Below are positions 21,961 to 54,539 of a stretch of DNA of 64,000 nucleotides, piece after piece. A model generated the notes under the pieces. It searched no databases. It was not told the DNA's origin and worked only from the letters and a program-made list of their open reading frames with translations. The stretch is from Hericium rajendrae (taxonomy: Eukaryota; Basidiomycota; Agaricomycetes; Russulales; Hericiaceae): the NCBI GenBank assembly GCA_033439255.1, contig CM065881.1, positions 1,922,001-1,986,000 of the forward strand, written 5' to 3'. Made by a program: the position numbers and the translations under genes. Numbering within the stretch: the stretch's first letter is position 1; each line of letters opens with the position of its first letter.

Positions 21961-22338
21961 CAGTAAATAATGTAAAGCAATCAAACAGGCATAGTCAGAT
22001 GGAAAGGCATAGAAGTCAAATCAAAAGGGTAAGATCAGAAGATATTAAAAAACTTTAAAAGTAAAGGGAGAAAGAGATACTTAGTGAAAATATTAGAAGG
22101 ATCTAAAAGAAAAGTCAGAACTGAGTGGAGGTCATAACTAAGTCAGAAGAGATCTAAAAAAAATCGAAATTGAGTAGAGATCAAAATCAGAGGTATAATG
22201 AGAAAATATCCAAGCATTACATCAGAGACATGCTCAAGCATCAACCAATGCAACAAACCAAGTCTACTTGTTGGCCAAAGCTTTGAGACCACAACGACGA
22301 GCACAGATGGCTGATTTGCCTGGAGCACTAATCACCTT

Positions 22339-22629
22339 CATCAGGAAAAGGGAAAATGTCTGACTGTCTGACTGTCTGACAGTTGTCTGAAATGTCTAAA
22401 CTTCTGACCCACATATGGATGGAATTACATATAGATTATTATTATATAGAGCTCAGATAGACTCAGACTTCAGTCTGACATCAGACAAAAATGTCTGAAA
22501 GGCACTTGACGATAGGGACCCGTCTAATTGGTCTGATTGTCTGATCATCTGGACCAGACAGAACCAGACAGAATCAGATCAGATTAGACAAAGTCAGACA
22601 CCATTCAGACAAATGCTGGTTTACTGATG
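22339..22629. mobile_element. CATCAG-type MITE, 291 bp (copy 2)
   Basis: It appears identical to 12-302 and is flanked by TT on both sides. It is inserted in the last exon of gene 2 of element A; the interrupted reading frame resumes cleanly on either side when compared with copy B at 54415-54425, which supports the 2-bp duplication. Identity with copy 1 implies recent movement. Confidence 0.93.
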
Positions 22630-24299
22630 TTCCGCTTGAGCTGAAGCAGCTTCGATGCTGCCGTTATGATAGCATCCCACTTTTCGGGAGTGAAATTACG
22701 AATGACTTCTGCATAGTCATCAGTAACGTCACCCCAGATGCCATAGGAGAACTGGCTCTTTATCCTCATCTCAAGCAAAGGATCAGGTGCATTAGGATCA
22801 GGACATAACCACCGTGTCTAGGCACGCTCAACCTTATACACAAGTCAGACAAGTATAATTAAAGAAGAGCAGACTTACCACAGCAGTAGCCAGTGCTAGT
22901 GCACCAGCTGGCCAATCAGGCTGTCGAGAGGTCTTAGGCATCTCAGAGACACTCTGAAGATGTGCAACGGCAAGAGTCTGGAGGATAACCCGAGACATGA
23001 AAGCATCCTCGTATACCTGTCAAGAACATGTTAGTAATAATACATAATAGTCAAAGGGTCTTACAATGTTGCCATCATCATCTTCGTATGACCCATGAAA
23101 GATGAATGGTAAAGTTGCACCATCACCCGCATCATGAATACCAAGCATCTTTGCAGCATACTGTTCCTTCACATTGAGGTTGTTGTTGACCACAGACTCT
23201 ACACTCCAGAAATGGTCAGCCACAGCATCGATAGCTGCATACGCAAAGCCGCGGCACCACTCGTATATCCGTTGCATCAACTAAGACAAAAGATATGAGA
23301 TATTGACTACACAACAGAGAAAAACTTACTAGAGAATACACCATGTCTTCTTTATCTTTGAACTCGTAAGGCACAGATGGGAACACCATATTCCAGGTGC
23401 TCTGGATGGGCTCAATGAGCTCCTGGGTGTCCCACGGATCTGCACGTGTACCCATGAAGTCTCGGAACATCGGTAAAAAAATATCTTGCCAACGCAGCTG
23501 TGTGCCGGGAGGTAGGTCAGCGTTAGTCGGCTTCCTGGTCTTGGTACGTTGCATCTCGGTCTCGGTGTCATCCTTGTCTTCGCCAAGGCGAGGACCAGGA
23601 CCAGGTGTGCACAATGTCTGACAGTAAATATTAGTGTTTCGTACATGAGTGATAAATGATAAATTCACCTGATGAGTTGAGGTTCCTCGGGGGAGTCCCG
23701 TGCGTGCAGGTGTTATGGGCTACAAGCCAAAGCCCATAAGATGCATACATAGTAATTAAAAATGATACATACCACCGTACGGATCGCGTTTGGTGCCGAA
23801 AACAAGCACCGCCCAGCACCCGAGTCTTGTGCAGGGATGGTCTTCTGTGGAGCTGAGACAGTGCGCTGAGATGATGGGGGATGAGATCGACCGGGTTCGC
23901 TCTCGTCGAAGATATCGTTGATGCGGGCTTTGCCACGAGAAGACGAGTACATTCGGCGAGCACGAACAATGACATGTTCGTGCTTGTCCTCGTTGTTGCT
24001 GTGCTCATTCCCGGGTTGTTGCCGTGAGGAAGAAGACGGAGGACAAGAACGAGCCCCAGGGGGCCCGTTCTCGTCAACATGGGGCTGGGCTCAGGGTCAG
24101 TAAGAGAAAAACAGAAAATAACATAAGAATGATGAGAACGAACCTCTGGCTCATTCTCATCGATATCGAGCTGCATCCGGTCCTACACGCACAAGGACAA
24201 AGAACAGATACATAGTTAGTAACTATGAGAATACAAAGAGAATGCAAAAATGAACCTGAAGTCCGTTCTCGTTGGTACGAAGTCCAGCACACTGCTGCT

Positions 24300-25170
24300 G
24301 GCGCGCAGATGAAGACGGACCACGAGAACGAGCAACGGGCTCGCTCTCATTGACCTGGGGCTGGGCGCGTGGTCGCAAGCCTGAAGATGACTGGGAACCA
24401 CGAGAACGAGCCTGTTGAGGCTCGTTCTCATCGAGAAGGACCTCTGCACGGGGATTTTGATGTGAATAAGACTGAACGCCACGAGAACAAGCCTCTTGTG
24501 GCTCGTTCTCTTCGACAGGGGGCTGGCCATGAGTGTTCCGACGCAAAGAAGACCGAGCACTGCGAGAACAAGCCTGTTGAGGCTCGTTCTCATCGACAGG
24601 GGGTTGGGCGCAGGCATGCTGGCCTGCAGACGATTGAGGACCACAAGAACGAGCCTGTTGAGGCTCGTTCTCTTCGATAGGAGGGCCGTCACGAGTGATC
24701 CGACGTGAAAAAGACCGAGCACCACGAGAACGAGCCTGTTGAGGCTCGTTCTCATCGACAGGGGGTTGGGCGTGGGCGTGCTGGCCTGCAGACGATTGAG
24801 GACCACGAGAACGAGCCTGTTGAGGCTCGTTCTCTTCGATAGGAGGGCCGTCATGAGTGATCTGACACGAAAAAGACCGAGCGCCACGAGAACGAGCCTG
24901 TTGAGGCTCATTCTCATCGACAGGGGGTTGGGCGTGGGCGTGCTGGCCTGCAGACGATTGAGGACCACGAGAACGAGCCTGTTGAGGCTCGTTCTCATCA
25001 AAAAGGGCCTCAGCTTGAGCTTGTTGATGCGAAGACGAGTGAGCACCGCGAGAACGAGCCCCTTGTGGCTCGTTCTCTTCGACGGGGGATTGGGCATGGT
25101 GGTATTGATGTGAAGAGGGCTGAGCGCCATGAGAACGAGGCTCGTGTAGCTCATTCTCGTCGAAGTAAAG
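24300..25170 (-). repeat. Tandem coding repeat of about 81 bp with a DNA palindrome in every unit
   Basis: Palindromes of the form GAGAACGAGCC-N6-GGCTCGTTCTC recur at about 24401, 24481, 24561, 24644, 24727, 24806, 24888, 24967, 25048 and 25130, with 79-83 bp spacing. Related weaker ones lie at 24051, 24136 and 24325. On the minus strand each palindrome encodes ENEPQQARS. The spacer between palindromes varies more than the palindrome. Confidence 0.9.
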
Positions 25171-26754
25171 CTAATAGATACAGTATTAGTCTAGACACAA
25201 TGGAAAGGAAATGCAATAACATACCTGGGTCTCCCCTTCGTGCTCTGACTGAGCCTCCTCATCAGCTGATGGGGGGGAGTATGCTTGCTCTTGCTCGTCC
25301 TCGAACACTTGTGTGATGTGTTCGATGCGGGTGGGCATCTTATCGAATGTAATGGCAACCTGTTATTAAGTTAATATGACGAAAAAATGCAGTAAGTAGT
25401 TACGCACCTGCTTGAACCCTCTACGCATATGCATCACTCCGGAATCCTCGACTCCATCGTCGAACTTCTCAACTGACTCTTCATCAGTCGACTCCGAGTC
25501 GTAGTGTTGCTGTGAGGACGCCTGACCGGCCTTGCGACTTGAAGGAAGCTGTGCCCGAGCAGCTTTCTCGTGCCATTGATCTGTGAGGCCAGTTCTGAAT
25601 GACAAAGAGAGTGCGAAAAGACGGGAATGGGGGTGAGCAGGCATGAAGGACAAAGTAAGTTGGTCAGTATTCCAAGTAAGGAAAAATCAGCGAGCATCTA
25701 CTTACTGACAGGACTTCCCTTTCGAGCGGGGCATGCCTCCACCTCGACTCCGAGGCTGTTCGAATCGTACTGCCTTTTTCTTCTCCCTCCTACGTCCCTG
25801 CTCATCATCATATTCCCCGTCGGCCATATCTGCATCCTCAGACACGCCGTCGTCTTGTTCTTGCTCAGGCTCAGACGGCTCCTGATATTGACTTTCATCT
25901 GCGCCAAACCGAAGGTGAGTCTCGATTTGTCTCATCAAAGCCTTAAACACTCACCATCACCTGTTTCTTCATTGAATTTCCCCTCCCATCCTCCATACTC
26001 ACCATATTCCCCATCCATCTCCAAAAACTTATCACTGATCTCTCGGTTGATCTCCTCAAGCCTCTGTATTCCCTCATCCAGTTCCATAATCTGCGGATCG
26101 TGCTCGATCAGATACAGATCGTCGGCGCCCTCGTCTTCGTCAATGTGTGAGGACTCCTCCTCCTCTTCCCGTTCAACCCGACGGACAACTGCCGTGGGCT
26201 CGACTTCGTCATCACTCTCTGTTACGCTCAATTCTGGTGCCTTGTCTGGTGTTCTACCTGCAGGATTCAGATATCTCAGGTGAGTTCCCCCATTAAAAGT
26301 CCAAACTCGAGCTTCACTGACCAATATTGGAATCAATCTCCATCCCTTCATCATCCCCGGCACCTGTCTCCTTTATTTCTTGATCACCTCGACCCCGACT
26401 GCCTCGACCCCGACTGCCTCGATCCTGACTGCCTCGACCCCGCGCCCCGCTGCCTTGGGCCCTACCTCGCATGACGTTGCATTGTCCGACGCGCTGGGTG
26501 TCTTGCCCGTGACACTTGGTGATGACAACGTGGGGTGCTGTCCTGGCAGCCCCTCTCCGTGTCTGCATACCCGTGCCCGTGCGTGCAGATGACGATGCTT
26601 GCATATTGCCGTTGCGCACTGCATCGTCGGCGAGCAATTCAATCTCGGATCGCCGGCGCTTGCGTGGTGCCTTCGCCTGATCCTCACCATCTGACTGGGT
26701 AATTGCGGGGAAATCGTGAGGGTTTCAATTTCTCTTTCGAGACCTTGGTGGCAT

Positions 26755-27130
26755 GCTGACTGCAGAGGGAAGGGACACAGGTGGTTGCGAGCTGGCAGAC
26801 TGAATAAAGCAGTCGCGAAGGTGTCTTCATGACGGCTACGCGTCGCAGATTTCTTTTGTTGTGATTTGTTGACGTGGAGCCTCGACTCGTCTAACGTGCA
26901 TCTGCTTGATACCTGCCGGCCTCGACTCATTCAACGTGCATCTGCTCAACATCTGCACACTTGGAGAATAGCAGTATTGCCTAGTGCTCAGCCAAAATCT
27001 CTTGACTCTGTGATAATTTGATATCATCTTGGTGAATAGTATCATTGCCCACTAGCAACTGGAGCTGTAATCTATTTGCTACTACTGTGATATATCTGCT
27101 GCTGGTCTATCTCTTGCCATTCTACATCTG
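26755..27130. promoter_or_regulatory. Divergent intergenic region of Plavaka A
   Basis: About 376 bp separates the start codons of gene 2 and the transposase, which are transcribed away from each other. The equivalent in element B is about 347 bp (49431-49777). It contains two copies of an AACGTGCATCTGCT-like word (about 26895 and 26933). No clear TATA box was identified. A shared bidirectional promoter is inferred. Confidence 0.5.
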
Positions 27131-29005
27131 ATGGCCCCTCGAAGTGTCCACCGTCCTCAGACAATACCTTGTCCGATGCCAAGTTCTCACTCATGTTGTC
27201 GTGGGTTTAGAACACCTTGGGGTCTCCGACAACACATAGAGGCCATCCATCCCTTTGCATATTGCTCTCGGGCACCATCACCGCCACTTGATTTTCCATC
27301 GCTCTTTGGTGCACAACATGACTCTGACTCTGACTCTGTATCTGATATTGATATGGCTGAAGATATTCATGATGATGATCAATTGCGCACTGAGATGCAC
27401 CCCATTCTTGATGGCAGACCTTGTGATAGAAATGGAAATTATATTGATCCAAATGCTGAGCCATGTGGCCTTCCTCTACCCAAAGATAAAAATGATTGGT
27501 CTCCATTTCGAAATCGAGTTGAATTTGAGACTGCAGATTTGCTATTTCGTCGAGTTCAGATTTCTGAGGATAATCATAATGATCTCATGGACTTGTGGGC
27601 TGCTTCTCATAATGGAGAGCCTCCTTTTGCAAATCAAAAAGATTTACATGATGTTCTTGATTCTATTACCTTGGGAGATGCACCATGGTATCGTTTTACA
27701 GTGAACTATACTGGAAAGATTCCAAAAAAAACCCTTCTAAATGGATGTTGGCTACATATGAAGTGTGGTATCGAGATCCACGTACAGTTATAAAAAATCA
27801 GCTGGCCAACCCTGACTTCAAGGGCGAAATTGACTATGCTCCAAAACGCCAGTTTAAAAATAACAAGAGATGCTGGACTGACTTTATGTCAGGAAACTGG
27901 GCATGGCATCAGGCTGATAAAATTGCTGAAGATCCCAAAACTCATGGTGCTACATTTGTACCTCTTGTTATGGGAAGTGATAAGACCACAGTTTCAGTTG
28001 GCATAGGCAACAATGAATATTATCCACTTTATGCATCAATAGGCAATGTGCATAATAATGTTCGGCGTGCTCATCATGATGCTTTGACTGTGATGGGCTT
28101 TCTTTCTGTTGCAAGAGCAGATCGCAGAAGTAAAAAAAGTGTTGAATTCTGCAGATTTAAGAAACACCTTTTGCATGAATCATTAGAAGCAATTTTAAAA
28201 TATTTGCGACCTGATATAACTACACCACAAGTGCATCGCTGTTCTGATGGGCATTTGCGTCGTGTTATCTATGGTCTTGGTCCTTATATTGGAGATTATC
28301 TTGAGCAAGTTGATTTGTCTACTATTGTTAAAAACTGGTGTTTTACATGCAAATGCAGATCAAAGCAACTTGATAATGATCCTGATCGTGGTCCAAGAAG
28401 TCATGAGGACACATGTGAATTGATGCAGTCTAAAACTAATCAACAACTATGGTATGAGTATGGCATAGTTCCAGGTATAATGGTTAGTACATATAATTAT
28501 ATATTATTAAAACTTTTATCTAATATTTTACCTAGCCATTTACAGCATCCTTTGCTCGTGCTGATATTCATGAACTTCTTTCTCCTGATCTTTTGCATCA
28601 AATCATTAAAGGCACATTTCATGATCATATTGTGATTTGGATTGAAGAATATCTAATAAAAGTACATGGCAAAACAGCAGGATCTGAAATTCTTGCTGAA
28701 ATTGATCGTAGAATTGCTGCTGTACCTGCATTTCCAGAGCTTCGTCGTTTTTCAGATGGACGTGGATTTTCACAATGGACTGGAGATGACTCTAAGGCAT
28801 TGATGAAAGTGTTTTTGCCTGCAATTGATGGTCTTGTTCCTCAGAGGATGGTGCATTATGTTCGTGCACTTTTGGACTTCTGTTATCTTGCACGGAGATC
28901 TACAATTGATGAAAATACTCTAAATGAAATGGAGGCTGCCTTAGAGATATTTTGGAAAGAAAGAGAGATATTCATAGAAGTTGGAGTACGTCCACAGGGT
29001 ATTTC

Positions 29006-29492
29006 TGTAACGGATGGTTTATCAGTTACTACTATAGTCTTCTACTTTCTTACTCTTTTCTACCTGGCTTACTTTTCGAGTTTTGCAGAGTTTCCTTATT
29101 AGGATAGCTGAGTTTGAATCATGTACTTAGAGCGGATTTCCTTATTGGGAATAAGGATCTATCTTGCCAACTCACCACCATCTGTCTGCTTTTGTCTCAG
29201 TCTCTGCTTGTTCTCCTCATATCTGAAAGGTTCTCTTGGGATCCAACCCTCAAAGGAAGGTGTGTGGCCCCCAAAACCCTCATCAGGAGGTCTATATCTG
29301 CTGCTGGCCCTCAGAGGAGGTGCCAGCTCATCACTCATCTGCTTGGCTGCAGGACTGAGGCATCCTCGGTTCTGTTAGTTCTAGCTCGTGGACTCTCTCT
29401 AGGAGGTCTACGACACCTTTATACCCTCCTCACTCGCTCGCCTACCTTGGACTTCCTGGGCAGTAGCGGCTCGACCTCTATCGTCCGTTACA
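29006..29492 (+). repeat. 5' LTR of the 5.08-kb element
   Basis: The 487-bp LTR begins TGTAACGGATGG and ends CCGTTACA; the outer bases form a short inverted repeat (TGTAACGGA and TCCGTTACA-like). It is nearly identical to 33597-34083. Confidence 0.92.
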
Positions 29493-29547
29493 AAGGTGGA
29501 CATATCCGGAAGTCCACTTGTCTCTGGCTGGCTGGTGAGGACTTCAC

Positions 29548-30333
29548 ATGTCTCATTCGGTTCCCCTCTCCCTGGACGTGGCATCCACGTCCAGGTTCCT
29601 TATCTCAAGTGACGATGTCAAGTCGTCTTATCGCCATTCGCTGGAGAGCCGCGTTCTCGCTCTCCGGTCTCATTCCTTTGTCGACAGTGATCTCGTCGAC
29701 AATGGGCTTGGTATCCGAGCCCATCGGTTTCAGATCAGGGAGCCCTTGCTCCATTTTGCCTTAGAGGTCATCGAGCAACTTCAATCGTCGCTCGATCAAG
29801 TCTGGTTTTGCCTGCCATACCCCCCAAGGTCTGTCTTCACGGTCGACAGGGATCTCATTCTTCGTTCCTGTCTCTATGGGTCACCATCTCCCTGGGATGT
29901 TCGCTGGGCCTGGCGCACATTGCAGGCACGAGTTGCCGAAGGTGTCGATATCCTATTCCGGTATGCAGATGCTCTTCCTCCTGCCATCAGGACTCCTCCT
30001 CCTCCTCGAGTTGAGGACCTCAGGGACGTGGAATCCATGTCCCTGGCAGTCCCAGGAGCTCTCTACCTTCGCACAGAACATGTCCCATGTGTTCTCCGGC
30101 CACTGTCTGTCGACGCAAGACTCGCTCGGCCATTCCAGGCCTCCTCCTCCTCTGGGCGGCTCCCTGCCTCCAGCTCCTCCTTCGGCCCAATTCTGGCTGC
30201 TTGGAGGGCCCTATATGCATCTCTAGTCCTCATAGAGATGCTTCGCTTCACTGCCCTATCAACAGGGCCTCGCCTCGAGGACTCCCATGCCGAGGAGAGG
30301 GTTAGGGAGCCTGGTAGTTCACCCCCTCTCTAA
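29548..30333 (+). CDS. ORF of 261 codons in the LTR element, function unknown
   Basis: I do not recognise this product. It starts shortly after the 5' LTR, where gag would be expected, and is rich in Leu, Ser, Arg and Pro with no zinc knuckle. It may be a highly diverged gag-like frame or a chance open frame in GC-rich sequence. No related frame occurs elsewhere in the window to test it. Confidence 0.3.
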   Translation: MSHSVPLSLDVASTSRFLISSDDVKSSYRHSLESRVLALRSHSFVDSDLVDNGLGIRAHRFQIREPLLHFALEVIEQLQSSLDQVWFCLPYPPRSVFTVDRDLILRSCLYGSPSPWDVRWAWRTLQARVAEGVDILFRYADALPPAIRTPPPPRVEDLRDVESMSLAVPGALYLRTEHVPCVLRPLSVDARLARPFQASSSSGRLPASSSSFGPILAAWRALYASLVLIEMLRFTALSTGPRLEDSHAEERVREPGSSPPL

Positions 30334-33300
30334 CTCTCTCATTTCTGGATGGATTCCCTCGGTTTCTTTTGTATCCTATTCGCTCTTCAAACGCTTTCCA
30401 CCTCGCTTCAAGTCCAGGAGGCTGGGGGGGCTGTAGATCGCTGAGATCAGGCTCTGTCAGGCGATGTAGGGAGGTTTTGGACGCAAATCGTGCTTTCCCA
30501 AGAACGTCTCAAGTGCTCCAGCAGTTGTCAAGATATCTTCATGCTCTCCTCATCCTCCCTCTGAAGCGAAATTTCACTGTATTTCCTTCAAATTTTCTTC
30601 TATTCCTTCGAAACTTGCTCCGTGGAATCCATGGAGCATTTGATACACCTTCGCATAACCGCTTTCACCCTGGGAGAAGACCCAACCTGTCAAATCTTCG
30701 CCATAGTCCATCTCCTATGGCCGGACTATCCTGGGGCTCATGAAGTCAGTTCTGCACGGATCCTTATACGGATGGGATGCCTCGATTTGGACCATCCACA
30801 TGATTCCAACGAGCCTTTGTACGAGCTGATTGGAGCCCTAGTTCCCATTTCATCGGCGATCCTGCTCAGCCTGGAGGAGAGATCATATTGCACTGCTGTA
30901 TCTCTCCTTTCCCTGTATCGATTTGGAACCGGGTTTCTGCACGTCAACGTGTGCCTTTAGGACCGTTCCGCTCACCAGGATGCTTTTCAGAGTGTCCAGC
31001 CATCCCCTTGGAATCCGAGGGTATCAAGGACGCTCCCTGGTGTGCTAAGATGGCCATAGCGTGGCACCTATGCTAGCTATGACCTAACGGACTTTTGGCC
31101 CGAGTTCGCGTTGCAAATACGCTTCGAACAAGCCCTCATACGTCCAGATCCGACCACCGGTTCTCATTATGCTCGAGGGGCTACTCACCCTGCTGCCCCT
31201 CCTGAGTGCCAGCTGGTATCTCCCTGAATACTGGACCGATTTCGAAGCGGTCTTTTGCACTCGACTCGCATTATTGACCCGGTACCAGAACACCAAAACG
31301 ATTTGAGGGACGTCCAGCCGTTCCTTCAGAATTGTGTCCATAGTCCAGGGGATTCCCCAGGCAGCCCCAGCTCCATATCTCCGTGACCAGGGGTGCTATC
31401 AACAAGCGGTTTCTTGTCATCTATTCCTTTATTTCACCATATTCATTCGTCTTAAGACCAGGAGGCTGGGGGGCTGCCAATGGCCGGACTTGGGCGACCC
31501 TGGCGATGTAGTGGCACTTGGATGAAGCTCTGTGGTATCCACTGGAACTTCATTCCTTCTGTTCTTCCTACATTCAGCCTACCCTTTGCAAACGCTTTTC
31601 GACAAGCCCAAGATCATGCTGATTGGTCCAGCCGTTCTCAAGATCAAATCATCTCCTCTTCCTCCTCCCTCTGGGGCGAATTTTCCTTGTATCTTCTTCA
31701 ATTCTCCTCCAATTCTTTCGAAACCTTTCTCGGTGGAATCCACTGAGAATTCGCTTTCGTATTCCTGCATTTGTTCTGCCCTGAGAGGCTCCTTTCTTCG
31801 CCATCTCTCTGGCCCTGCCTGTTCTTCAGGCCAGACTTATCTCTACACCCAAGGCCGAATATCTGGCGGATTGTCAAACGGTTTGAACGCCCAAGTTTGC
31901 GTTTTTAATGCAATTCCAACAAGCCCTCATACGACCTGATACGACCAGCCCTTCCCATTCCACCTATGGGGCCACAGCCTCTGAGAAGGGCCCAGACTGC
32001 ATATCCATATCTCTGCCGTCCGTGGACCAATTCCTAAGCGGATTTTTGCATCTGGACCGCAATAATCATCGTATTCTGGGGCACCCAAAATGTTTCTACA
32101 AACGCTATCCCATTCCGTTGGATTCCAATGGAACTGATGGCGCTCTTGGGTGCCTTAGAAGGCTTGTAGCGCTCGATCCACATGTGCTATCGCTGCAAAC
32201 TCTTCTTGACCTTAACACGTTCATAAAAGGGATTCAAACAAGCCCTCATCCATTGTCATCCACCCAGCCGTTCCCATTCGACCTTCGCCTGGCTTTTGCA
32301 GCTAGCCATCCTCCCTATCCTGCCACATCTCCTTCGTTTCTGGACCGATTTGGATGCGGGTTTTTGCGCTCTGCTCGCATACTCGAACGCTTTTTAATCC
32401 CTATACAAGCTCTGGGGTATTCTATGGCTTGGGTAGTCATCCAGCAAGTCACTTGGCGATTTAGGCCTCTTTTGGCTCAGCCATATCTCGGCATCCAGAC
32501 CACTAATCAACAAGCGGATTTTTGCATCTCCTCCGCATTGTTCACACCTCCAAAACGCGCCCTCACACGTCCTAATCCGACATGATCTTGCTCCGCAAAT
32601 CCCTTCTCTCCATCCTCATCTCCTTCAACATCCTAGGGATGGCATCCATCCCTTTCTGCTTATCTGCAACCCTCGCTGCTCTTACGCTCTGTGATCCTCA
32701 TTCAATCCTGTCTACTCTCAACTCAAATCTCCCGCACCAGTCTGGGGGGGCTCGTATGCCTCACTCATCGTCCGTCCTCGACCCCACCATCCACCCATAT
32801 TTTGGACTTCCATCTAGTTTCTGATGCAGAGTCTGGGGGGGCTTGTGTGACTAGGGCCTGTGGCACAGTTTTCAGGATTTTGGGACCTTAGAGGTATGGA
32901 GGTTTCGCTCCCCCTGTCCATCTACTGGGAGTACCTGCACAGAGCTAGCGATGGGGGGCTATAGGGATGTATAGGAGGGAGGCTGGAGCCTTGCAGAGCA
33001 CTGGATCCAGCATTCCTTTGGAGTCAGACCCCTAGGGCTGAGAGCAGCTGGGAGCTGCATAGGAGCTTGTGAGATCCTGCCTTCCTGCTGTGAGCAGACT
33101 GGAGGAGTGGCTGGATGCCTCAGGCCTCAGCCATCCTGAGACCAGCTTGGAGACCTAGGAGCTGAAGAGATCCTGTCTCTTTGCTGAGAGCAGTCTGGAG
33201 TCTGGGTGGCTGAGATAGCCTGTGGCCTTGGCTTAGCATCTTTCATCCTTCCCTTTTGGATGTGAAGTGCTGCAGCTGGAGGACTTGTAGCTTGGCTAGG

Positions 33301-33596
33301 GTTGGAGGCTGCTCTGTTAAGAGAGCTTGGTGCAGTTAAGTCTGGAGCTGCAGAGCTTCACATGCAGATTTTCTCTTCAATTTTCTTCTCTAAATTTTCA
33401 CTCTAAATTTTCACTCTAATTTTTCACTTTTATCTTGTTTCTACTTTCTTCTCTAGATTTTTCTCTGATTTTTCTACTTTAACCCTTTTTCTTCTTTTCT
33501 AATTTGTCTTGTTCCCTTTCTGCTTTGTTCATTCTCAGCTTTGCATTACTCACTTTGTGTTCAGGAGTCTCAAAGACCAAGAAAGTGGGGGGGCTC

Positions 33597-36294: not shown

Positions 36295-36296
36295 TG

Positions 36297-36894: not shown

Positions 36895-36928
36895 CATCAG
36901 AAACCCTTACAACTTTCTGATGCATCTG

Positions 36929-39201: not shown

Positions 39202-39412
39202 CATCAGGAACCCTCAGAACTTTCTGATTGATCTGATTTGATCTGATTTGATCTGATGTCAATCTGATTGGTCTGATTTTTTTTAAATCAAGTATCTGAG
39301 AATTGAGATATTGACAACTAGAATACTTAAGTCTCTTTATATATAATACATAGATCAAAATTCCTTTAAAGCTCTTTTCAGATCAATCAGAAAGTTCTGA
39401 GGGTTCCTGATG
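39202..39412. mobile_element. CATCAG-type MITE, 211 bp
   Basis: It begins CATCAGGAACCCTCAGAAC and ends with the reverse complement. The 2-bp duplication TC flanks it. It is inserted in the coding region of the element B transposase. The left half is rich in TGATCTGATT repeats. Confidence 0.9.
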
Positions 39413-43370: not shown

Positions 43371-44516
43371 TCAGATGGTGACCGACGGTCGACCTGTACA
43401 TAGACCGGATGGATGGCGCCGTGTGATGACCGGAAGAGGCGGAGGTGGTGGTGGTGGCTGTGAACGAGTAAGGTGTGCAGGGCGTGTGCGAGATCGACGT
43501 GCATGACGTTGGAGGGACTCGAATGGCGGCCGTAAAGAAGGAGTACGCAATACTGAGAAATCCCGAGTTGGTGATAATGCAAGAGGGGTGACATTATTGA
43601 TAGGAAGTATGGCGGCATCATCCGCCCATGAGAATGAATTGAAAGTTGTATGTGCCGTTGAAGGGTCATTAATGTGATTCGTAAAAGAGGCGCGTGACGT
43701 CGGAATATCGTCAAGTGAAGGTGGAATGACTGTACATGGTGGGGTATTTGCAGAAGGCATAACAACGTGAGCAGAGGGATGCAAATTGTCTTTGAAGGTA
43801 GTGTTGCTGTGCGTCGGCATAGCGGAATCGGCGGGGTCTAGTGTTTGGGAGGCAAAATCGACACGGGTGGACGGCATAGTGTCATCCGTCTGAACGATGG
43901 CGACGGCGATGGCGACGTGGCACGTGGAGTGTTCCGTGGTTAGGGGTGCGTGTTGGTCATGCGATGCCGGCGGCGGTGCGTGGGAGGCAGCAGTTGCGTG
44001 CAGTGGTGCGCACGGGTTGGCATGCGGTGCAGGCGAGCGGGGTGGGGCAGCGGATTGGACGACGGCGTCAATGCGTGCAGATGGGCGGGGTTGAGGCAGA
44101 GTCCACGGACGGTCCGCTTGGACACCCGCATTGACGCGATGTGGGGTGCTCACCTCGGCACACACTGCCTCGACTCCCTCGCTGTACCCCTCCTCGCGTC
44201 CTTGCTCATACCCCTCCTCGCATCCTTGCCCATACCCCTCCAGCCATCCATCGTCCCAGGTAGCTGCAGACGGCTGCTCCGGTGTCTGCATCCACGCCGC
44301 TTGCCTCTGGAGTCTCCGGCCGTCCTCGATGATGGCCGCGAGAAGATCTGGATGGACCTCCTCGTGCGTCATGGCCAGACACGGGGCTGGGTCATGTACG
44401 CGTGTCGCAGGAGCGGGATCGGCGATGCAGCCGGGTGCGGCAGGGAGTTCGACGTGCGTGTCGTCAGACGCGTGCGCGGGTGTTGTTACAAAAAAGGCCG
44501 GTGGGCCTGCAGCGTG
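43371..44516 (-). pseudogene. Downstream part of the small LTR element's ORF
   Basis: This is an Ala/Pro/His/Thr-rich frame with an unusual glycine/glutamate heptad-like block (GYGQGCEEGYEQGREEGYSE) about one-third along and a proline run near the end. No zinc knuckle or known gag domain is visible. It is part of a retroelement ORF divided by the MITE at 44517-45097. Role unknown; a gag-like structural protein is one possibility. Confidence 0.55.
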
Positions 44517-45097
44517 CATCAGGAAGGTTGACAACTTTCTGATTGACCTGACAATTTCTAACCCTACTGACAACTCCTGATTGACCTGATCCACCTGAAA
44601 GCAATCTTAACAGGCAAATATCTGATCAAACTTTTACATTTAAGTAAAGACATTTATTGTCAGATATATAAGTTTGTAATCTCTAACTAATAGATATAAC
44701 AAAATCTCTGATATCTGAAATTTTCTAAATCTGAGAGTGTCTGATCTGAGATTTTTTTCAAATCTGGAGGTCAAATATCTGAAAATTATCTGCAACTGTC
44801 TGAGAGCATCTGATGGTGTCTGACACTGTCTGATCCATCTGACTGATATTTGACCTCCAGATTTGAAATCAGACACTCTCAGATTTTCAAAAATTTCAGA
44901 TATCAAAGATTTTGATATATCTATTAGTTAGAGATTAAAAACTTATATATCTGACAATAAATGTCTTTTCTTGAATGTAAAAGTCTGATCAGATATTTGC
45001 TTCCCAAGATTGCTTTCAGGTGGATCAGGTCAATCAGAAGCTGTCAGTAGGGTTAGAAATTGTCAGGTCAATCAGAAAGTTGTCAACCTTCCTGATG
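44517..45097. mobile_element. CATCAG-type foldback MITE, 581 bp
   Basis: It begins CATCAGGAAGGTTGACAAC. The first about 280 bp and the last about 280 bp are largely reverse complements, so the element is a long foldback. The duplication TG flanks it. It is inserted in the ORF of the small LTR element and is the innermost level of the nest. It is rich in TCTGA words, as in the Plavaka subterminal regions. Confidence 0.92.
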
Positions 45098-45579
45098 TGT
45101 ATGCAGGCTGCTAGCGCGGCAATGGCAGCGGTGGCGGGCATCGATAGCGCCGGGAGCGGCGAGGGCTGCATGGGCAGTGACGCGGATGCGTAGGGGGGCT
45201 CGTGCGGGGCGTTAGCGGTGGGTGCTAGCGCGAGTGGGGGTTCGCGTTCGCATGTCGCAGCACACGTGTTCGGCACGTGGTTGTCTTGCGTCTGGGTTGT
45301 GTCCTCAAAGGCAAATGCGGGCGTGGCGTCGGCGACGGGGGTAGTGGGCTCGATAACGAGTGAGGGTGCAGGGGACTGCGCACGATGTGCGGCTACTGCG
45401 GGCGCCATCTGGCTCTCGCATGGTTGCTGTGGTACGCACGCAGGGAGTTTGCCGATGTTGGATGTGGGGGCGTGTGTTTCGAGCGACTGCGCGGGGCTCG
45501 GAGTAGCTGTTGATAGCATTGTAGTTGCTGCTGCTGCTGCTCTCCAAGCAGCTTTCGCGGTGCGCTTGTTCTTGTCCAT
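45098..45579 (-). pseudogene. Upstream part of the small LTR element's ORF
   Basis: It opens with a basic MDKNKRTAKAAWRAAAAA segment and continues Ala/Pro/Thr-rich with no recognised domain. It lies about 310 bp inside the upstream LTR on the minus strand, as expected for the first ORF of a retroelement. Confidence 0.55.
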
Positions 45580-46030
45580 ATTGGATAATGGTGCGGGGGC
45601 TCATGTTGTGGAGTAGAATGCGACAGTGGGGGCGCGAAAACGGTTCGCGGGTGCAGAAAATGGGCACGCGGGACACGAGATGAGAGCAGGACACTAGAAA
45701 ACGTGGGTAGGGGTCTCAGAACGCAGGAAAATGAGGAGAAATGGCATGCGACATGAGGAGCATGAATGAAACACGAGGTGTGACACGAGAGACGAAAACT
45801 GGCACGAAAAAAAGACGAAAAAGCCAGAAAAAGACAGGACGGACTCGACTCAAAGCTGAAGTGAGTCGAATCACACTCTCATCACCACATGGAGAGGCCA
45901 AGGGCTATAGCTATGCCCAGTGATGGTATGCGATGATGAGAGCTAGCTACACATGAGGAACCTGGCTATGGACAATGCTGACTAAGCTCGGCTATGCCTC
46001 GCCTCTGGCTCCCTCAGACCCACTGTCCCA

Positions 46031-46560
46031 GCATGCACGGTGTTGAACGCAAGCATGAGGCCTTGCGGGGATTGAGGCGAGCATGAAGGGTCATGGCCGA
46101 TAGGCATGAATGACGTCCGAGTCCCATTGCCATGGCAACGGGACTACGGTGCATGCACATGCACGGACATGGGGCATGGGCGATGATATGGCCCATGTGC
46201 ACATGTTGTTGACGTCGTGCAGACGACGTCACGTGGTACACACATGCGCGCATGCTGTAGCCTTGTGCACGCTGGTGCACGTGGAAGGAGATGGTGGTCG
46301 GAGGCATGTGCAGGGGTTGCAGCCTGTTGGAGTCAGGCATGGGGTGTACGAGCTGTGCGCGGGGCATGGATGTGGCGTAGACAGGCTGAGGAAGGGGCGA
46401 TGAGAGTGCAAAAAAGGCGGCAGGATCGTAGGATGGTAGCGCGGGGATGTGGGGTCAACAGAATAAAAGATATCGAGAGTGTCGCTCGAAAAACAATTGA
46501 CACTCTCTTGATTAGTACGAAAAAATGATAAGAGGCTTTTTTTTTTTACTCACCTAAGGC
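46031..46560. repeat. GC-rich region of element C2 next to the small LTR element
   Basis: This is the reverse counterpart of about 20560-21010 in element C. A hairpin-like GAGTGTC...GACACTC pair (46474-46506) matches the GTGTCAC...GTGACAC pair at 20580-20608. Open frames on both strands are repeat translations. Confidence 0.55.
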
Positions 46561-46939
46561 CCTTTAAGTATCTGCTAAAAAAACCATCCCAGCCGTATTG
46601 AAAGCTGATAGAGAATGAAAGAAATGGAAGGAAGGAGGCTGGAGGAGGAAACACGAAGGAGGAGAAGGGAGACTGGTAAAAAGGAGTGAAGTCTCGACAT
46701 GTTAAACTCGGTGCTTCAGCCACCAAATGAGCAAAGCTTTGTTGCTCGAGCCTCAGCAAATCAAATAAACTTGTATAAATTCAACAAAAAAAGGGACAGT
46801 GAGAGATTATACATTTAATTAGAATGTATGAGAACACTGTGTATCTACTGGACTGTGAATCTGTGAGCAGCAGCATCAACGTAGTAAAGTCTGGCATCCA
46901 GTCTCTGCCACAACACTCGGCAAGCACCCAACAACCACA

Positions 46940-47430
46940 AATCCCGGTTCCGTCTGGGATTCCTATATAAGGCTGGTATAACACGCTTTACCTCTTGCTC
47001 TTTAACCCCCACCATCCCTTGCCACGTCAACACATTTGTTGTCATCATTTGCTCACTTGTTATCATTTGCTCGCTCATCATCATCATTTGCTCACTCGTT
47101 GTTGTTGTTTGCTCATTTTATTATTATTGTTCTCTTTGTTGTTAAAGGTACGCTGTTATTCTTAATTATCTTATAACTTATACTAATGTCTTCATACTTA
47201 TTACACTATCATGTAGTCCTACTAGGTAAGCTTGATTGTTTCTTATACTGATGTCTTCAAATTGTCTTGTAGATTTTTGCTTTTTTGTTAATCTGGTAAG
47301 TCTTCATACATTATCTTTGTTATCTTCTAATACTCATGTCTTTTCTTATTTGTATCTTTTGCTTTTTGTAGTCATTGTAAGTTTGTTACCTTTTGTAGTT
47401 CTGTAGTAGTCTCTGTAGCTATAGTAATGT
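46940..47430 (+). promoter_or_regulatory. TATA box and splice-like module series of element C2
   Basis: TATATAAGG at about 46970 is followed by a pyrimidine-rich leader and then modules of the form GTAAG...TACTAAT (or TACTGAT)...TTGTAG, near 47153, 47226 and 47299. Spacers between the AG and the next GT are 9-25 bases. The same arrangement is present in C (minus strand) and D. It looks like repeated short introns with micro-exons, but no protein is encoded. Confidence 0.45.
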
Positions 47431-49430
47431 TTTGTAATGAAATTGTTTGAGTAATATAATTTATCCAATTTTCAATGTTTGTGACTGTAAGACATCAGAC
47501 TATTGAATCTATAATATATTTATTTTATATGCTATTTTAGCATATTTGATAGAAGTAATATAGAGTAGATAGAAATCTTACTAGCTAGATATAACATAAT
47601 GATAGAGATATATTATATAGTTAATATAGCTTCTATAGTTATCTTATACTAGAATAACTATGACAGCTATGATAGCTTATGCCCTATGCTATGGTAGCTA
47701 TGGTAGCTATGGTAGCTATGGTAGCTTATGCCTCATGCTATGACAGCTATGACAAGCTATGATAGCTTTGCATAGTTTACTTGACTGCTATGTATAAAAG
47801 AGGACAGCTATGGACCTAGGAAAGCTATGTAGCTAATATAGTGTTATATACCAGTAACATATTTCTCAGATGTTGACCTTGAGGTAGCTATAGATTTTAT
47901 AGAGATTTATAATCAATCTGACAAGTGAGACTTTACATCATTTATGCACTGTTTCTAAATATAACTAACAATGAAAAAGGAATCGTATTGCTGTGCGAAG
48001 CATCGGCCCTCTTTCACCAAGTAAGATAGTTTGTAGGGTTCCTGATGCATTAGATAAAAGTTTGATAAGATATAATTGCAAGTACTAACCATTATACCTG
48101 GACGTATGCCATACTCATACCATAGTTGTTGATTAGTCTTGGACCTCATTAATTCACATGTATCCTCATGACTTCTTGGATCATGATCAGGATCATCATC
48201 AAGTCACTTTGATCTGCATTTACATGTGAAACACCAGTTTTTAACAATAGCAGACAAATCAACTTGCTCAAGATAATCTCCAATATAAGGACCAAGACCA
48301 TAAATAACACGATGCAAGTGCCCATCAGAACAGCGAAGAACTTGTGGTGTAGTTATCTCAGGTCACAAATATCTTAAAATTGCTTTCAAAGATTCATACA
48401 AAAGGTGTTTTTTAAATCTGCGAAATATAACACTTCGTTTACTATTGCGATCTGCTCTTGCAACAGAAAGAAAGCCCATCACAGTCAAAGCATCACGATG
48501 AGCATGCCAAACATTATTATGCACATTGCCTATTGATGCATAAAGTGGATAATATTCATTGTTGCCTGTGCCAACTGAAACTGTAGTCTTATCACTTCCC
48601 ATAACAAGGGGAACAAACATGGCACCATGAGTTTTGGGATCTTCAGCAATTTTATCAGCCTGATGCCATGCCCAGTTTCCTGACATAAAGTCAGTCCAGC
48701 ATCTCTTGTTATTTTTAAACTGGCGTTTTGGAGCATAGTCAATTTCACCCTTAAAGTCAGGGTTGCTCAGTTGATTCTTTATTATTGTACGTGGATCTCG
48801 ATACCACACTTCATATGTAGCCAACATCCATTTAGGAGGCTTTTTCTTGAGAATCTTTCCCGTATAGTTTACTGTAAAACGATACCATGGTGCATCTCCC
48901 AAAGTAATGAAATCAAGAACACCATGTAAATCTTTCTGATTTGCAAAAGGAGGCTCTCCATCATGTGTAGCAGCCCACAAGTCCATGAGATCATTATGAT
49001 TATCCTCAGAGATCTGAACTCGGCGGAATAGTAAATCAGCAACTTGAAACTCAACTCAATTTCGAAATGGAGACCAATCATTTTTATCTTTGGACAAAGG
49101 AAGACCACATGGCTCTGCATCTGAAGCAATATAATTTCCATTTTCATCACAAGGTCTGCCATCAAGAATGGGATGTGTCTCAGTGTGCAATTGATCATCA
49201 TCATGATTATTTTCAGCCATATCAATATCAGAGTCAGAGTCATCATGTTGTGCATCAAAGAGAGACGGAAATGTTGGAGGTGGTGATGGTGCTCAAGAGT
49301 GAGAGGCAAAGGGATGAATAGCATCTATATGTTGTCGGAGACCTCAAGGTGTCCTGAACCCTCGGTGACAAGCATTAGAAGTTGGCATTGGACATGCAAT
49401 TGCCCATGGACGGTGAACACTTCGAGCCAT

Positions 49431-49777
49431 AGCAACAGAGCCAACTCAGAGAGACACCAGGCCAAAGACAAGAAGAATGCACAAGACAGAGTCAAGCACA
49501 ATAGCACAGAAGTGTGCCTATGAATAAAATCTGGATCTGAACAGCCAAGAGAATTATGCGAAAGGCAAGGCTTTTATTGTGAGGGACTTATAGCTGCTTC
49601 GTGCAATGGATAACAAATGAGGAAATCTCACGCAAGTCGTGAGCCTGTCGGCAGAGTCTAGAGTCTAGAGTCCTGTCGGCAGAGTCCTGTCGATCACGGC
49701 AAGGTCACTCTCAGCAAGCACTCTCTCTTTGCACTACTGCCAGCTCACAACAACCTATATCTCCTCTTCCAGTTAGC
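49431..49777. promoter_or_regulatory. Divergent intergenic region of Plavaka B
   Basis: A 347-bp gap separates the divergent starts of the transposase and gene 2. It contains a short direct repeat (AGAGTCTAGAGTCTAGAGTC at about 49655 and GGCAGAGTCCTGTCG nearby). No definite TATA box was found. Confidence 0.45.
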
Positions 49778-50744
49778 ATGCCTCCACAGTCTCGAAAGCA
49801 AAATCGGGACCCTCACCAGTTCCCTGTTATTGTTCCTACTGCCTCAGATGGCAAAGATCTGGACAAGATGCCACATAAGCAGCACCGATCTGAGCTCGAG
49901 CTGCTTGCAGAGGATGCCGTACGCAATGGTAATGTCCGCGAGTCAAGACGTCAGGGCACGGGCATGCGAACACGGAGCGGAACAGCCACAACAAGGCCCC
50001 AAGTCATCATCACCATGCATCGTAAACAAGGCACGCGACGTGCACAACGTGGTGGACAAGGCGCCCAACATGCACAGCGTCACAATGTCCCACGAGGTGC
50101 CAATGGACAGAAGGACAGAGAATATGGTGGGAGGAGCCACGCGAGGAGGCCATGGATGATCGGGAAGTGGAAATAGAGAGTCATGAGTAAGCTTAGCTTG
50201 ATTTGAGGGACTGCGACTTACCTGAAAACCTAGAAGAGAAATTGAGAAAGACTCGAGATGGTAGTGAGACCGAGACTGATGATGGCACCGAGCCCGTGCC
50301 AGTCGTCCATCAGGCTGTACGAGAGGAGGAAGAGGAATCGTCGCAGACTGGCAACGATGAAGCAGATGGTTATCGTCCTGAATACGATGCGGATATTGTC
50401 GCGATAGATAAGGGGATTGCAAGGCTGGAGAGCCTTGGGCGCGAAATTAGTGACAAGTTCCTGGAAATGGATGGGGAGTATGGTGAGTATGGTGGGGGAC
50501 AAGGCAAGTATGATGAAGACTTGGGAGATGGTCAGTGCTCCAAGTCTGTTCAAGTTGAGTGTTACTTACTTTGATCTGCACAGATATCAGCCAGTTCGGA
50601 GATCCAAACATCCGCGAGCCGTCTGAGCTGGATGAAGACAAGTTCAGCCAAGACGAAGATAGCGACGTCGATATGGGAGATGTCGAGGAAGATGAGCAAG
50701 AGTCTCGCGTGAAGGGTAAGGGAAAGAAAGTTTGCTTTGAGCAG

Positions 50745-51145
50745 CATCAGGAACCTTCAAAACTTTCTGTTTGACCTGCGAGGCATCTGACAGTGTCTGC
50801 ATGACCTGCAGCAGTTGCATCAGACACATCAGATACTCTCAGACAACATCAGCTACTCTCAGCTAGCTGCAGAATATTTGACCTTAAGATTCAAAAAAGT
50901 ATCAATGCAGAATGCTCACAGACTGATCAGAACTGCTCAGATTTATGTAAATTTTAGATATTGAAAACTTTGTTGCATCTAATGATTAGAGTTGGATGAT
51001 TACTATATCTGCCAATAGTTATTGACTTCAAAATATAAAATCTCTGATCAAAAATTGACCTCTAATTAGAGCCTGCAGCTGGATCAGGTCTTGCAGTTGA
51101 TCAGACTCTGCAGGATCCATCAGAAAGTTTTGAAGGTTCCTGATG
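50745..51145. mobile_element. CATCAG-type MITE, 401 bp (copy 2)
   Basis: It has the same length as 11535-11935, very similar sequence and TIRs CATCAGGAACCTTCAAAAC. The AG duplication flanks it. It is inserted in an acidic exon of gene 2 of element B, and the reading frame on either side would be continuous without it. Confidence 0.93.
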
Positions 51146-51779
51146 AGCCTCAAGGTCAAGGCGTGCTCAACTCGAATCGGAAATTTTCTCATCAGTAAGT
51201 ACAGTAGACGCTCTATTTCCCAACTTGGACAACTCACTGACTACACCCATGCTTATCTGCCTTCCTCGCACACACTATCCTACCTGCAGAGCTGGATTAC
51301 GATCCAATTGGCACGAGACTATGCACTCACAAGATACGAACGGGCGTGGTTCCAAAAACAGCAAGTCTTCGGCTCCTCCTCATGATCAACCACAACCAGA
51401 GAAGAGTGATGATGATGACGAGGTACTTGAGAGCTGGGAGTTTGAGGACCAAAGAGCGAAGTTTCGCTGCTCAGATCAGGTGTGTGGTATATAATTCTAC
51501 TTGAGTCAACATGCTAAGATTGGTGATCTGTAGGTGAAGATCACATTCGACACCCATCCCTCTGCATATGACAAAGCATGTGCAGATGACGACTACCTCG
51601 ACCGTTCACCCAGCCCCCATGATTTGACTCATCTGCTCGACCTCACACTTCCCGAAGATGATGACTTGCAGCAACAACTGGAACGAGCCTGGGAGATTGA
51701 AAAAGGCTTGTTAGTTGAGGATGGGGACGAATTGGAGGACCCGAGCCAGGTGAGTCCGTATCTTTGAGTCATTTTGTAT

Positions 51780-53140
51780 GATATTTGAACCAGTTTCCAG
51801 CCCAGCAAGAATGAGAACGAGTCCCAGCGCACTCATTCTTGTGGTCAACCCCGGTATAAGGCCACAAACAACGAGAACGAGCTGCAAGAGGCTCGTTCTC
51901 GTGTCCATCATTCATCTTCCCATCACCAGCCCCAGCCCCAGCCCAGCAACGAGAACGAGCCCAGTGCGGCTCGTTCTCGTGCTCTGTCTTCCTCTATGCA
52001 TCAGAAACCACGTAGCACGCCCCGTACCAACGAGAATGAAGCTCGGGTACGTTGCTGCACTTTTTTTCTTTCTTTCTTTCTTTCTTGGCTAACTCTGTTT
52101 GCAGCCTCGTTTCGACGAGAACGAGTCCATCGGGCAGAAACCATGTAGCGCACCCCATACCAACGAGGATGAAGCTCGGGTACGTTGCTGTGCTTTTTTT
52201 TCTTTCTTTCGTTCTTGGCTAACTCTATTTGCAGCCTTGTTTCGATGAGAACAAGTCCATCGGGACTCGTTCTTGTGCTCTGCCCTCACATACACACAGC
52301 CAGAGCCATGAGGCTGAGAATGAGCTTCAAGATGCTCGTTCTCATGTGCCGCTTGCTTCCTTGCACCAGCACACTCGAACGCAGAGCAGCATTGATGAGA
52401 ACGGACCTCAGGTTCGTTCTCATCATTTCATATGCTCTTATCTACTAACTCACTATGTCTGCAGCCTCCTTTCAATGAGAACGAGCCCACTGGGGCTCAT
52501 TCTCATGCTCCACTTTCTACCTCATGCGCACATGGCCGGACTCAGGCCAACAACACCGAGAATGAGCCAGCAAATGCTCGTTCTCATGCACCGCCTGCTT
52601 TCTCGTGCCAGCACACTCAAACACAGAGCAGCGTCGATGAGAACGGACCTCAGGTTTGTTCTCGTCATTTCTTATGTCTCTATCCTAGCTAATCAATTTG
52701 CAGCCCCATTTCGACGAGAATGAGCCCATCGGGGCTTGTTCTCATGCTCCACTTTCTACTTCATGCGCACGTGGCCAGACTCAGGCCAACAACACCAAGA
52801 ATGAGCCAGCAAATGCTCGTTCTCGTGTGCCGTCTGCCTCCTCTCGCCAGTGTGCCTGAACACAGAGTCATGTCGATGAGAACGAACCTCAGGTTCATTC
52901 TCGCCATTTCTTATGCTTTTATCTACTGACTTACTTGTCTGCAGCTTCATCCTGATGAGAACGAGCCCACTGGGGCCCGTTCTCATGCTCCACCCTCACG
53001 CACATATGGCCAAATCCACCACACCAAGAACGAGCTACAAGATGCTCATTCTCATGTGCCATCTTCCTCCTCATACCAGCAATCCCGCATGTAGCCCCGT
53101 TTGGATGACAACGAGCCTCAACAGGCTCGTTCTCATGCTT
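51780..53140 (+). repeat. Repeat exons with GAGAACGAG...CTCGTTCTC palindromes (copy B)
   Basis: Palindromic cores recur at about 51810, 51868, 51950, 52315, 52485, 52558, 52720, 52797, 52960, 53026 and 53109. From about 52090 the unit is an exon plus intron, with intron starts such as GTTCGTTCTCATCATTTC repeated (52412, 52653 and 52893). The unit length there is about 240 bp. Copy A instead has its units tandem within one exon. Confidence 0.8.
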
Positions 53141-54539
53141 CTCACTCTTCGCAGCAACAAGGATCCTGGCGCACAGTCTCAGCTCCCCAGACAACACCTG
53201 CGCACGATTTGGGGGCTGGCCAGCATTCAGTTTCAGCTTCAAACAAAGTCCATACAGTGGTATGTAGTCTTATATCTACTTATGTGCCAATGCTAACTCT
53301 ATGTTTGTATCTGCAGCCAGTGACACCTGCACCACTCTCTCGAACATCTTCATCACAACAGGTATGTTTAGATCTTTATTTTTTTGTGAATAATAATATT
53401 CATATCTTCTGTTAGAATCCCCACACACCTTGTCCTCGTCGCAATGGCGAGGATGAAGATGACACTGATACTGAGATGCTAGGCCCACAACATAGCAAGA
53501 CCAAGAAGCCGAGCAATGCTGATTTGCCTCCGAACATGCTACAACAGTGGCAAGATGTATTTGTACCTATGTTCCGGGACTTTATGGGTACGCGCGCAGA
53601 CCCATGGGACACCCAGGGGCTTCTTGAGCCTATCCAGAACCTCTGGGATATGGTTTTTCCCACTGTCCCTCATAAGTTCAAGGACAAGGACGACATGGTC
53701 TATCTTTTGGTGAGTTCTTCTGCACTGTATATGCACTAACTAACTCACATGTTTCTGGCTTTAGTTGATGCAGCGGCTTTACGAATGGTGCTGTGGCTTT
53801 GCTTATGCAGCCATTGATGCTATCGCCAATCACTTCTGGAGTGTAGGATCAGGTGTCGACAATGACCTTGACCTTGATGCAAAGGAAGACTATGCTGTAA
53901 ACATGCTTGGGATTCAAGATGCTGGTGATGGTGCAACCCTCCCGTTTATCTTTCGTACATCATACAAGAATGCTGATGAACATACGGTAAGACTTTTGCA
54001 TGTCATATTTTACATACTAAGATATTCTTGATAGGTATATCAAGATGCCTTCATGTCTCGGGTCATCTTGCAGACCCTCACTGTTGCACACTTGCAGAGT
54101 GTGTCGGAGATGCCAGAGAACTCTCAGTGGCTTGAATGGCCAGTTGGTGCATTAGCACTAGCTACTACTGCGGTATATCTCTTCTTCTTTTTGTTTTACT
54201 TATCTGAGTTGTGTGTTAGATTGAGCATGCTTGGACCCGATGGTTGCATCCTGACCCCAATGTGCCTGATCCTCAATTGGAGGCAAGGATCAAGAGCCGA
54301 TTCTCTTACAGCATCTGGGGTGACGTTACTGATGACTATGCAGAAGTTATTGCTAACTTCACTGATGACAAGTGGGATGTCATTGTGAAGGCAGTTGAGG
54401 GATTGCTTCAGCCAAGACAAAAGGTGACTAATGCTCCTGGCAAGTTAGCCATATCTGCTCGTTGTCGTGGTCTCAAGGCTTTGGCCAACAATTAGAGTTG
54501 GTTTGCTACATTGATTGGTGGTTGGTAACTTGATGCTTG

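Follow-up and report, generated by a model that had tools for sequence, protein, structure and literature searches.

A divergently transcribed second gene of Plavaka elements in Hericium rajendrae, a candidate TnpA-like accessory gene related to DUF6532

The stretch analysed here, referred to as the window, comprises 64,000 nucleotides of the Hericium rajendrae genome (C4:1922001-1986000 of the source genome, which amounts to 46.8 Mb in 19 contigs) and contains two Plavaka transposable elements, A and B, each of which carries a second gene (gene 2) transcribed divergently from that of the transposase. Gene 2 lies inside the terminal inverted repeats (TIRs), is linked to the transposase across divergent Plavaka families, is under purifying selection, diverges together with the transposase, and occurs on the same elements as arrays of TCAGA/TCTGA motifs. 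The explanation favoured here, to which we accord somewhat less than an even chance, is that gene 2 encodes a TnpA-like Plavaka accessory protein that would bind these arrays and have a role in transposition and/or in countering silencing.

Two Plavaka elements and the structure of gene 2

Element A (positions 21329 to 36294 of the window, + strand, 14,966 bp) possesses the TIR CATCAGGTACCC... and the target site duplication (TSD) TG; element B (36895 to 55236, - strand, 18,342 bp), whose TIR was also read, is flanked by the 2-bp TSD GC, and both elements were in addition recovered as brackets formed by paired TIR matches. The outer limit of homology is common, to within a few bases, to A, B and the loci L015, L020, L021 and L022 elsewhere in the genome, the terminal sequence at this limit being CATCAG(G/A)(A/T)ACCCTT(AC/GG)AACTTTCTGATG. 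A and B are both complete, with inverted CATCA..TGATG termini and TSDs of 2 bp. Their transposases match PF18759 (303 bits for A, 324 bits for B), and the elements combine this domain with the CATCA..TGATG termini and the TSD of 2 or 3 bp that characterize PlavakaB, the definition of which, as regards termini and TSD length, is given in section 3.2.2 of PMC12730594.

Gene 2 is located wholly inside its element in both cases (A: 22265 to 26754, - strand; B: 49778 to 54494, + strand), and both are broken copies, the C-terminal domain of the B copy being open. In A, the divergent starts of gene 2 (26754, -) and of the transposase (27131, +) are 376 bp apart, and in B those of gene 2 (49778, +) and of the transposase (approximately 49433, -, a position extrapolated from residue 4) are separated by about 344 bp. 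The initial annotation of the window had described this divergent plan with a gap of about 350-380 bp, together with acidic exons, a repeat block and a conserved C-terminal domain marked by particular sequence blocks; all of these are present, and the domain consists of four exons per copy. The start of gene 2 is basic (MPPRSRKR-type) in A, B, L015 and L021, and acidic exons and repeats then precede the domain. The repeat block of A (24301 to 25242, - strand) is an 81-bp tandem array of DENEPQQARSRG-type units; that of B (51792 to 53144, + strand) is degenerate, with copies spaced unevenly at 130-242 bp, so that its repeat unit differs from the 81 bp of A. Such repeats are family-specific, with DENEPQQARSRG units in A and L015, DENEPQEARSRG in L021, GSDTEPEDDEEVPVYTAKGKLVAQQAD in L019 and others in L012 and L014, while the domain still aligns between families, in keeping with the earlier observation that it is better kept than the repeat block. 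Ab initio gene-2 models are noisy beyond the C-terminal domain and the first exon and serve as a guide only.

After the acidic tract, a K-x-V-x-F island was found in eight of 12 gene-2 regions (B, L020, L021, L015, L029, L012, L017 and L023), as read in plain open frames and with the relevant stretch of A lying outside the region compared. Composition shuffling produces the island at rates of 0.001-0.008 per exon, exons and pattern having been chosen after the island was seen. It fits what we take to be the PP1 docking pattern, and is a lead only.

The C-terminal domain extends in A from 22625 to 23524 on the - strand (exons 23524-23330, 23280-23065, 23016-22879 and 22832-22625, with a tail past an insert) and in B from 53515 to 54492 on the + strand (exons 53515-53709, 53765-53986, 54035-54172 and 54220-54492). 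An alignment of the domain from nine spliced gene-2 proteins contains 25 invariant columns, with 31-78% identity to B, and seven of the nine match PF20149 (DUF6532) weakly and collinearly (profile positions ~38-191; Pfam search, E up to 1). Relative to the Pfam gathering cut-off of 24 bits, L014 scores above (28.6 bits), whereas B (19.2 and 19.6 bits; E 0.0012), L015 (15.9), L017 (19.9), L023 (19.9) and L019 (18.4) score below; the Pfam search gave no match for A or for gene 2 of L028. All five Pfam-type DUF6532 proteins spliced from the source genome match PF20149 (best 3e-40), and a profile-profile comparison of gene 2 with these five gave E 0.0036 over 108 collinear columns at a probability of only 9%, as against E 0.28 over 21 columns with three DUF6532 sequences. 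The impression of a DUF6532 likeness recorded at the outset thereby gains substance, and because the window copies score under the cut-off, their domain is best regarded as a probable divergent relative of DUF6532 and not as a filed member of it. A scan of viral contigs for gene-2 relatives returned 12 pattern matches, none of them related.

Both A and B look dead, given the retrotransposon in the transposase of A, the interruption and stops in that of B, the inserts in both gene-2 copies and the stops in gene 2 of A. The transposase gene of A (27131 to 35182, + strand, end approximate) is split by a long terminal repeat (LTR) retrotransposon at 29004 to 34084, the 490-bp LTRs of which are 99.8% identical, and the interrupted transposase gene of B spans 38046 to 49433 (- strand, both limits approximate). 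Premature stops cut short gene 2 of A in the exon at its start and in the final exon of the domain, the latter exon also housing a 291-bp insert resembling a miniature inverted-repeat transposable element (MITE) with CATCAG..CTGATG ends (22339 to 22629); a MITE-like insert of 401 bp with the ends CATCAGGAACCTTCAA..TTGAAGGTTCCTGATG occupies 50745 to 51145 in an N-terminal exon of B gene 2. Tandem arrays with a 158-bp period are located beside A (18294-19047) and in the DNA interrupting B (41294-42089), mutually inverted and about 80% alike.

Linkage, selection and shared history with the transposase

Linkage was surveyed in the source genome, with search counts representing lower bounds (best candidates were scored). 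The Plavaka model yielded 132 genome matches, which merge into 79 transposase clusters. The C-terminal domain of B as query gave 106 matches (E up to 0.01), two distant relatives, used in the same way, retrieved 121 and 88, and the DUF6532 model gave 27 (E up to 0.1); the merged total is 76 clusters (59 of gene-2 type and 17 from the DUF6532 model), rows from the two distant-relative queries having been added only where new and omitted where they fell on or beside existing clusters. A divergent gene-2/DUF6532 partner is present within 13 kb of 55 of the 79 transposase clusters, as compared with a mean of 1.8 and a maximum of 11 divergent pairs over 500 rotations, a control that is approximate in that some contig ends were set at the last match and loci that are nested or clustered do not count as independent. 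Viewed from the gene-2/DUF6532 side, 52 clusters have a divergent Plavaka as their nearest one within 13 kb, six a tandem and four a convergent one, and 14 have none within this distance. Linked homologues at other Plavaka elements, for which the initial annotation had proposed a survey, are thus found in this genome, and the outcome it had named as contrary, that is, homologues occurring mainly as free-standing host genes and carried by a single element lineage, is not what these counts describe. Chance linkage was rejected by the rotation control, and a restriction of gene 2 to the lineage of the window was rejected on account of its linkage across divergent Plavaka families.

With up to 3 mismatches allowed, the TIR was matched 135 times in the forward and 121 times in the reverse orientation, and the reversed pattern was not matched at all. 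Among the 100 of these 256 matches that were listed for bracket analysis, 16 brackets exceed 5 kb, and each of the 11 that contain a transposase also contains gene 2, one of the 11 covering two transposase clusters; TSDs were read for A and B. Five long brackets with variant TIRs, in which neither gene was detected, are located at C1:4312126-4317812, C1:4311520-4317812, C2:3265627-3271465, C2:3276420-3292404 and C2:3416241-3429418, two of them sharing one end. The loci L011 (C1:620808 on) and L016 (C11:36482 on), which combine Plavaka with a divergent Pfam-positive DUF6532 match, are 99.87% identical over at least 15 kb, which points to a recent duplication or transposition.

Gene 2 is under purifying selection. 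The ratio of nonsynonymous to synonymous divergence (dN/dS) of the domain is 0.16 for A-B, 0.15 for B-L015, 0.15 for L015-L021 and 0.20 for L023-L017, and over the 26 defined between-subfamily pairs it ranges from 0.13 to 0.36 (0.13-0.26 for 23 pairs of one set; 0.20, 0.24 and 0.36 for three of another), with dS saturated in the deeper pairs and left undefined in two deep ones. Values well under 1 had been named beforehand as the expected sign of selection. Across 10 elements, identities of gene 2 and of the transposase are correlated (Spearman 0.83; Mantel test, 0/5000 permutations), and therefore the two genes travel together on a long time scale.

For the same subfamily pairs, the synonymous divergence of gene 2 exceeds that of the transposase core by a factor of approximately 2 to 6.5: 1.10 versus 0.29 for A-B (in full, dN 0.172 and dS 1.10 for the gene-2 domain, dN 0.068 and dS 0.289 for the transposase), 0.60 versus 0.29 for B-L021, 0.80 versus 0.30 for L015-L021, 1.14 versus 0.18 for L017-L023 and 1.53 versus 0.23 for L017-L019. 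The near-identical pair B-L020 has no such excess (0.050 in gene 2, 0.062 in the transposase). Considering that the synonymous sites of one molecule should share one age, and that gene 2 nevertheless looks older, we infer that elements have exchanged sequence by recombination or gene conversion, which would have either homogenized the transposase core or replaced gene 2; constraint on transposase codons may also contribute.

Element ends and the proposed function of gene 2

In element A, TCAGA/TCTGA motifs are concentrated at both ends, on the gene-2 side at 21329 to 22264 (45 in the first 500 bp and 15 in the next) and on the transposase side at 34329 to 36294 (30 in the terminal 466 bp and 33 in the adjoining 500 bp), with 0-4 per 500 bp in the interior. 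In B, motif counts place such arrays at 36895 to 38236 (transposase side) and at 54737 to 55236 (gene-2 side, 40 in the last 500 bp). Arrays of ATCAGA/GTCTGA type lie beyond gene 2 in L012, L014, L017, L019, L021 and L022, and in weaker form in L023; that of L028 may in part be its MITE-like insert. Gene 2 of L017 and of L019 is 31-32% identical to that of B, yet the arrays are present, and their persistence while gene-2 identity drops to 31-34% indicates that the core of the end motif is kept. Among the 100 listed TIR matches there are also 22 inverted pairs of less than 400 bp that are MITE-like, with arrays in those that were read, which suggests that the element ends suffice in cis. MITE-like Plavaka derivatives that measure ~210-260 bp and possess both TIRs and TCAGA repeats were noted at L037 (538-799), L028 (3448-3656, inside its gene 2) and L030 (7847-8097).

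This combination of a transposase, a second protein, end arrays and end-only derivatives corresponds to a CACTA-like plan, and it is from this plan that binding of the TCAGA arrays by gene 2 is proposed. According to the favoured mechanism, the product of gene 2, basic at its N-terminus, would act in the nucleus; its acidic, fast-evolving and repeat-rich middle would multimerize or recruit host factors, and its DUF6532-related C-terminal domain would recognize the TCAGA/TCTGA arrays present at either end of the element. In this manner the protein would help the transposase to pair the ends and/or relieve host silencing of the element. Nuclear location, DNA binding, multimerization and a role in transposition or silencing are all predictions of this model. 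The initial suggestion that gene 2 is selected for an accessory function (in transposition, in silencing evasion or in DNA binding) is partly supported, by linkage across divergent families in this genome, by dN/dS and by the DUF6532 likeness.

Other Plavaka loci carry a TET/JBP-like match. For six of the 46 TET/JBP matches in the genome, all six weak, a Plavaka cluster is found at a distance of 6.4-7.7 kb and a DUF6532 cluster at 1.7-4.6 kb (loci C2:26562-36474, C2:3859035-3868945, C4:1120802-1130715, C9:547408-558385, C4:343940-357661 and C14:65071-75348). The match lies between the transposase and the DUF6532 gene, the latter being on the same strand as, and downstream of, the TET/JBP-like match; a seventh match is 11.4 kb from a Plavaka. 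The six score 27.5-30.2 bits, all under the Pfam cut-off of 34.9, and 31.5 bits (E 1.3e-7) were obtained for the TET exon of L040. At that locus the TET frame closes with a stop and is followed by same-strand open frames of a separate gene, in which a basic, an acidic and a DUF6532 part can be distinguished. A three-gene plan (transposase, TET-like gene, DUF6532 gene) would follow from these positions, gene order having been read in L040.

The TET-like gene in these loci makes an anti-silencing component of gene 2 function more likely, and a stronger form of this idea, which we consider rather unlikely, is that gene 2 is purely anti-silencing in the manner of VANC of Arabidopsis VANDAL elements, a protein that would bind its own family's non-coding repeats and remove repressive marks while being dispensable for the transposition reaction. 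The placement of the DUF6532 gene at the six loci would agree with this, as would the faster divergence of gene 2, for which identities of the C-terminal domain and of the transposase are 67% and 97% (L017-L023) and 46% and 88% (L017-L019). The targets of VANC are tandem repeats that diverge rapidly, as described in part of PMC10398659, whereas the TCAGA/TCTGA core is common to divergent families. A further reading, which we judge unlikely, treats the DUF6532-type protein as an exchangeable self-recognition cassette of Plavaka that would dock the host phosphatase PP1 or, in another lineage, work beside a TET dioxygenase encoded by the element, and so open the ends to transcription and transposition; it derives from the pairing of close transposase cores with gene-2 versions that are strongly diverged at synonymous sites.

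Myb-like second proteins of Harbinger and MURB of MuDR are models for yet another possibility, in our estimation quite unlikely, that gene 2 is a partner or regulator of the transposase (acting in nuclear import, stability or phosphatase recruitment) with no array binding of its own. The basic N-terminus, the K-x-V-x-F island and the co-divergence of the two genes would all be in keeping with such a partner, but the end arrays would be left unexplained, and the island is missing from the acidic stretch of L019 and L028, with L014 offering only RVVF there and a looser match elsewhere in its gene model. The idea that gene 2 goes back to a single capture of a host gene, which has since ridden along as a passenger, is very improbable: the 14 of 76 clusters without Plavaka within 13 kb could be taken in its favour, but the dN/dS of 0.13-0.36, the occurrence in several divergent lineages and the constant divergent position run counter to it. 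Moreover, three of the four such orphan clusters that were fetched look like element remnants, L037 on account of TCAGA-rich flanks on both sides, L038 on account of one such flank (partly MITE-like pairs) and L035 on account of its match to the gene of the TET-bearing locus L040; the fourth, L036, has no such signs.

A number of observations weigh against gene 2 being an array-binding accessory protein. Both copies in the window are broken, and dN/dS is high among near-identical copies (A-L015 0.82, B-L020 0.54, L021-L022 undefined), as is expected of decaying ones. No divergent partner was found within 13 kb of 24 of the 79 transposase clusters (18 with none, six with another orientation only), and five of the 16 long brackets among the listed TIR matches contain neither transposase nor gene 2. 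Interior windows of B reach 16 motifs, partly within inserted DNA, and no TCAGA array was found in the 17 kb around the L011/L016 DUF6532 pair, a region that does not extend to the transposase-side end. Searches for a recognized DNA-binding domain were negative: beyond the weak DUF6532 matches, Pfam returned nothing better than E 0.03 for the domain and no match for an 825-aa ab initio N-terminal model of L021 gene 2, the best match in the PDB had E 0.033, and the predicted fold of one 91-aa exon, computed without an alignment, was uninformative (pLDDT 52.6). Furthermore, the transposase may itself bind the element ends, since its N-terminus (27131-27499) shows C2H2-like spacing, as judged by eye; for the L015 homologue, Pfam reports Plavaka alone.

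Comparison with known systems

Accessory proteins of transposons are, as a kind, already known; the gene-2 family, its relation to DUF6532 and its location on Plavaka were not found in print in the portions of the literature covered. No DUF6532 second gene is named in the passages of the Plavaka literature covered, and for DUF6532/PF20149 the sources consulted comprise a Ganoderma comparison in which PF18759 and PF20149 are listed for the same two species, no link being drawn. PlavakaB (Kojima 2025, PMC12730594) resembles A and B in its PF18759 transposase, CATCA..TGATG ends and 2-bp TSD; the extra gene it is described as carrying is TET/JBP, and the main text of that paper does not contain the terms DUF6532, 'second gene' or 'accessory'.

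DUF6532 gains a testable context, as it rides on Plavaka in several lineages of one genome and is sometimes found beside a TET/JBP-like gene, and CACTA-like Plavaka elements gain a probable second subunit for which the TCAGA arrays are a defined candidate target. A caution for annotation is that genes assigned to DUF6532 may belong to transposons; should the cassette reading be true, a fungal domain family of unknown function would be a transposon weapon instead of a host gene set.

VANC of VANDAL is similar in plan in that it is element-borne, is regarded as acting on the non-coding repeats of the family to which it belongs, and evolves fast. With regard to CACTA elements, Plavaka transposases have recognizable similarity to EnSpm according to the sections consulted of PMC12730594, and the corresponding parts of PMC2613891 and PMC10398659 describe maize TNPA as recognizing the subterminal repeats of Spm/En, as needed for transposition and as linked to demethylation of the element. 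TNPA and TNP1 share little similarity with each other (in the part of PMC2613891 used), and for gene 2, which was not compared directly with either, Pfam did not call a CACTA accessory family. Gene 2 is unlike TnpA/TNP1 of EnSpm and Tam1 in being a separate, divergently transcribed gene and not an alternative splice product, and in the repeat unit concerned, TCAGA/TCTGA; it is like them in representing the second protein of a related superfamily, in being accompanied by subterminal arrays at both ends, and in the existence of non-autonomous derivatives that keep the ends.

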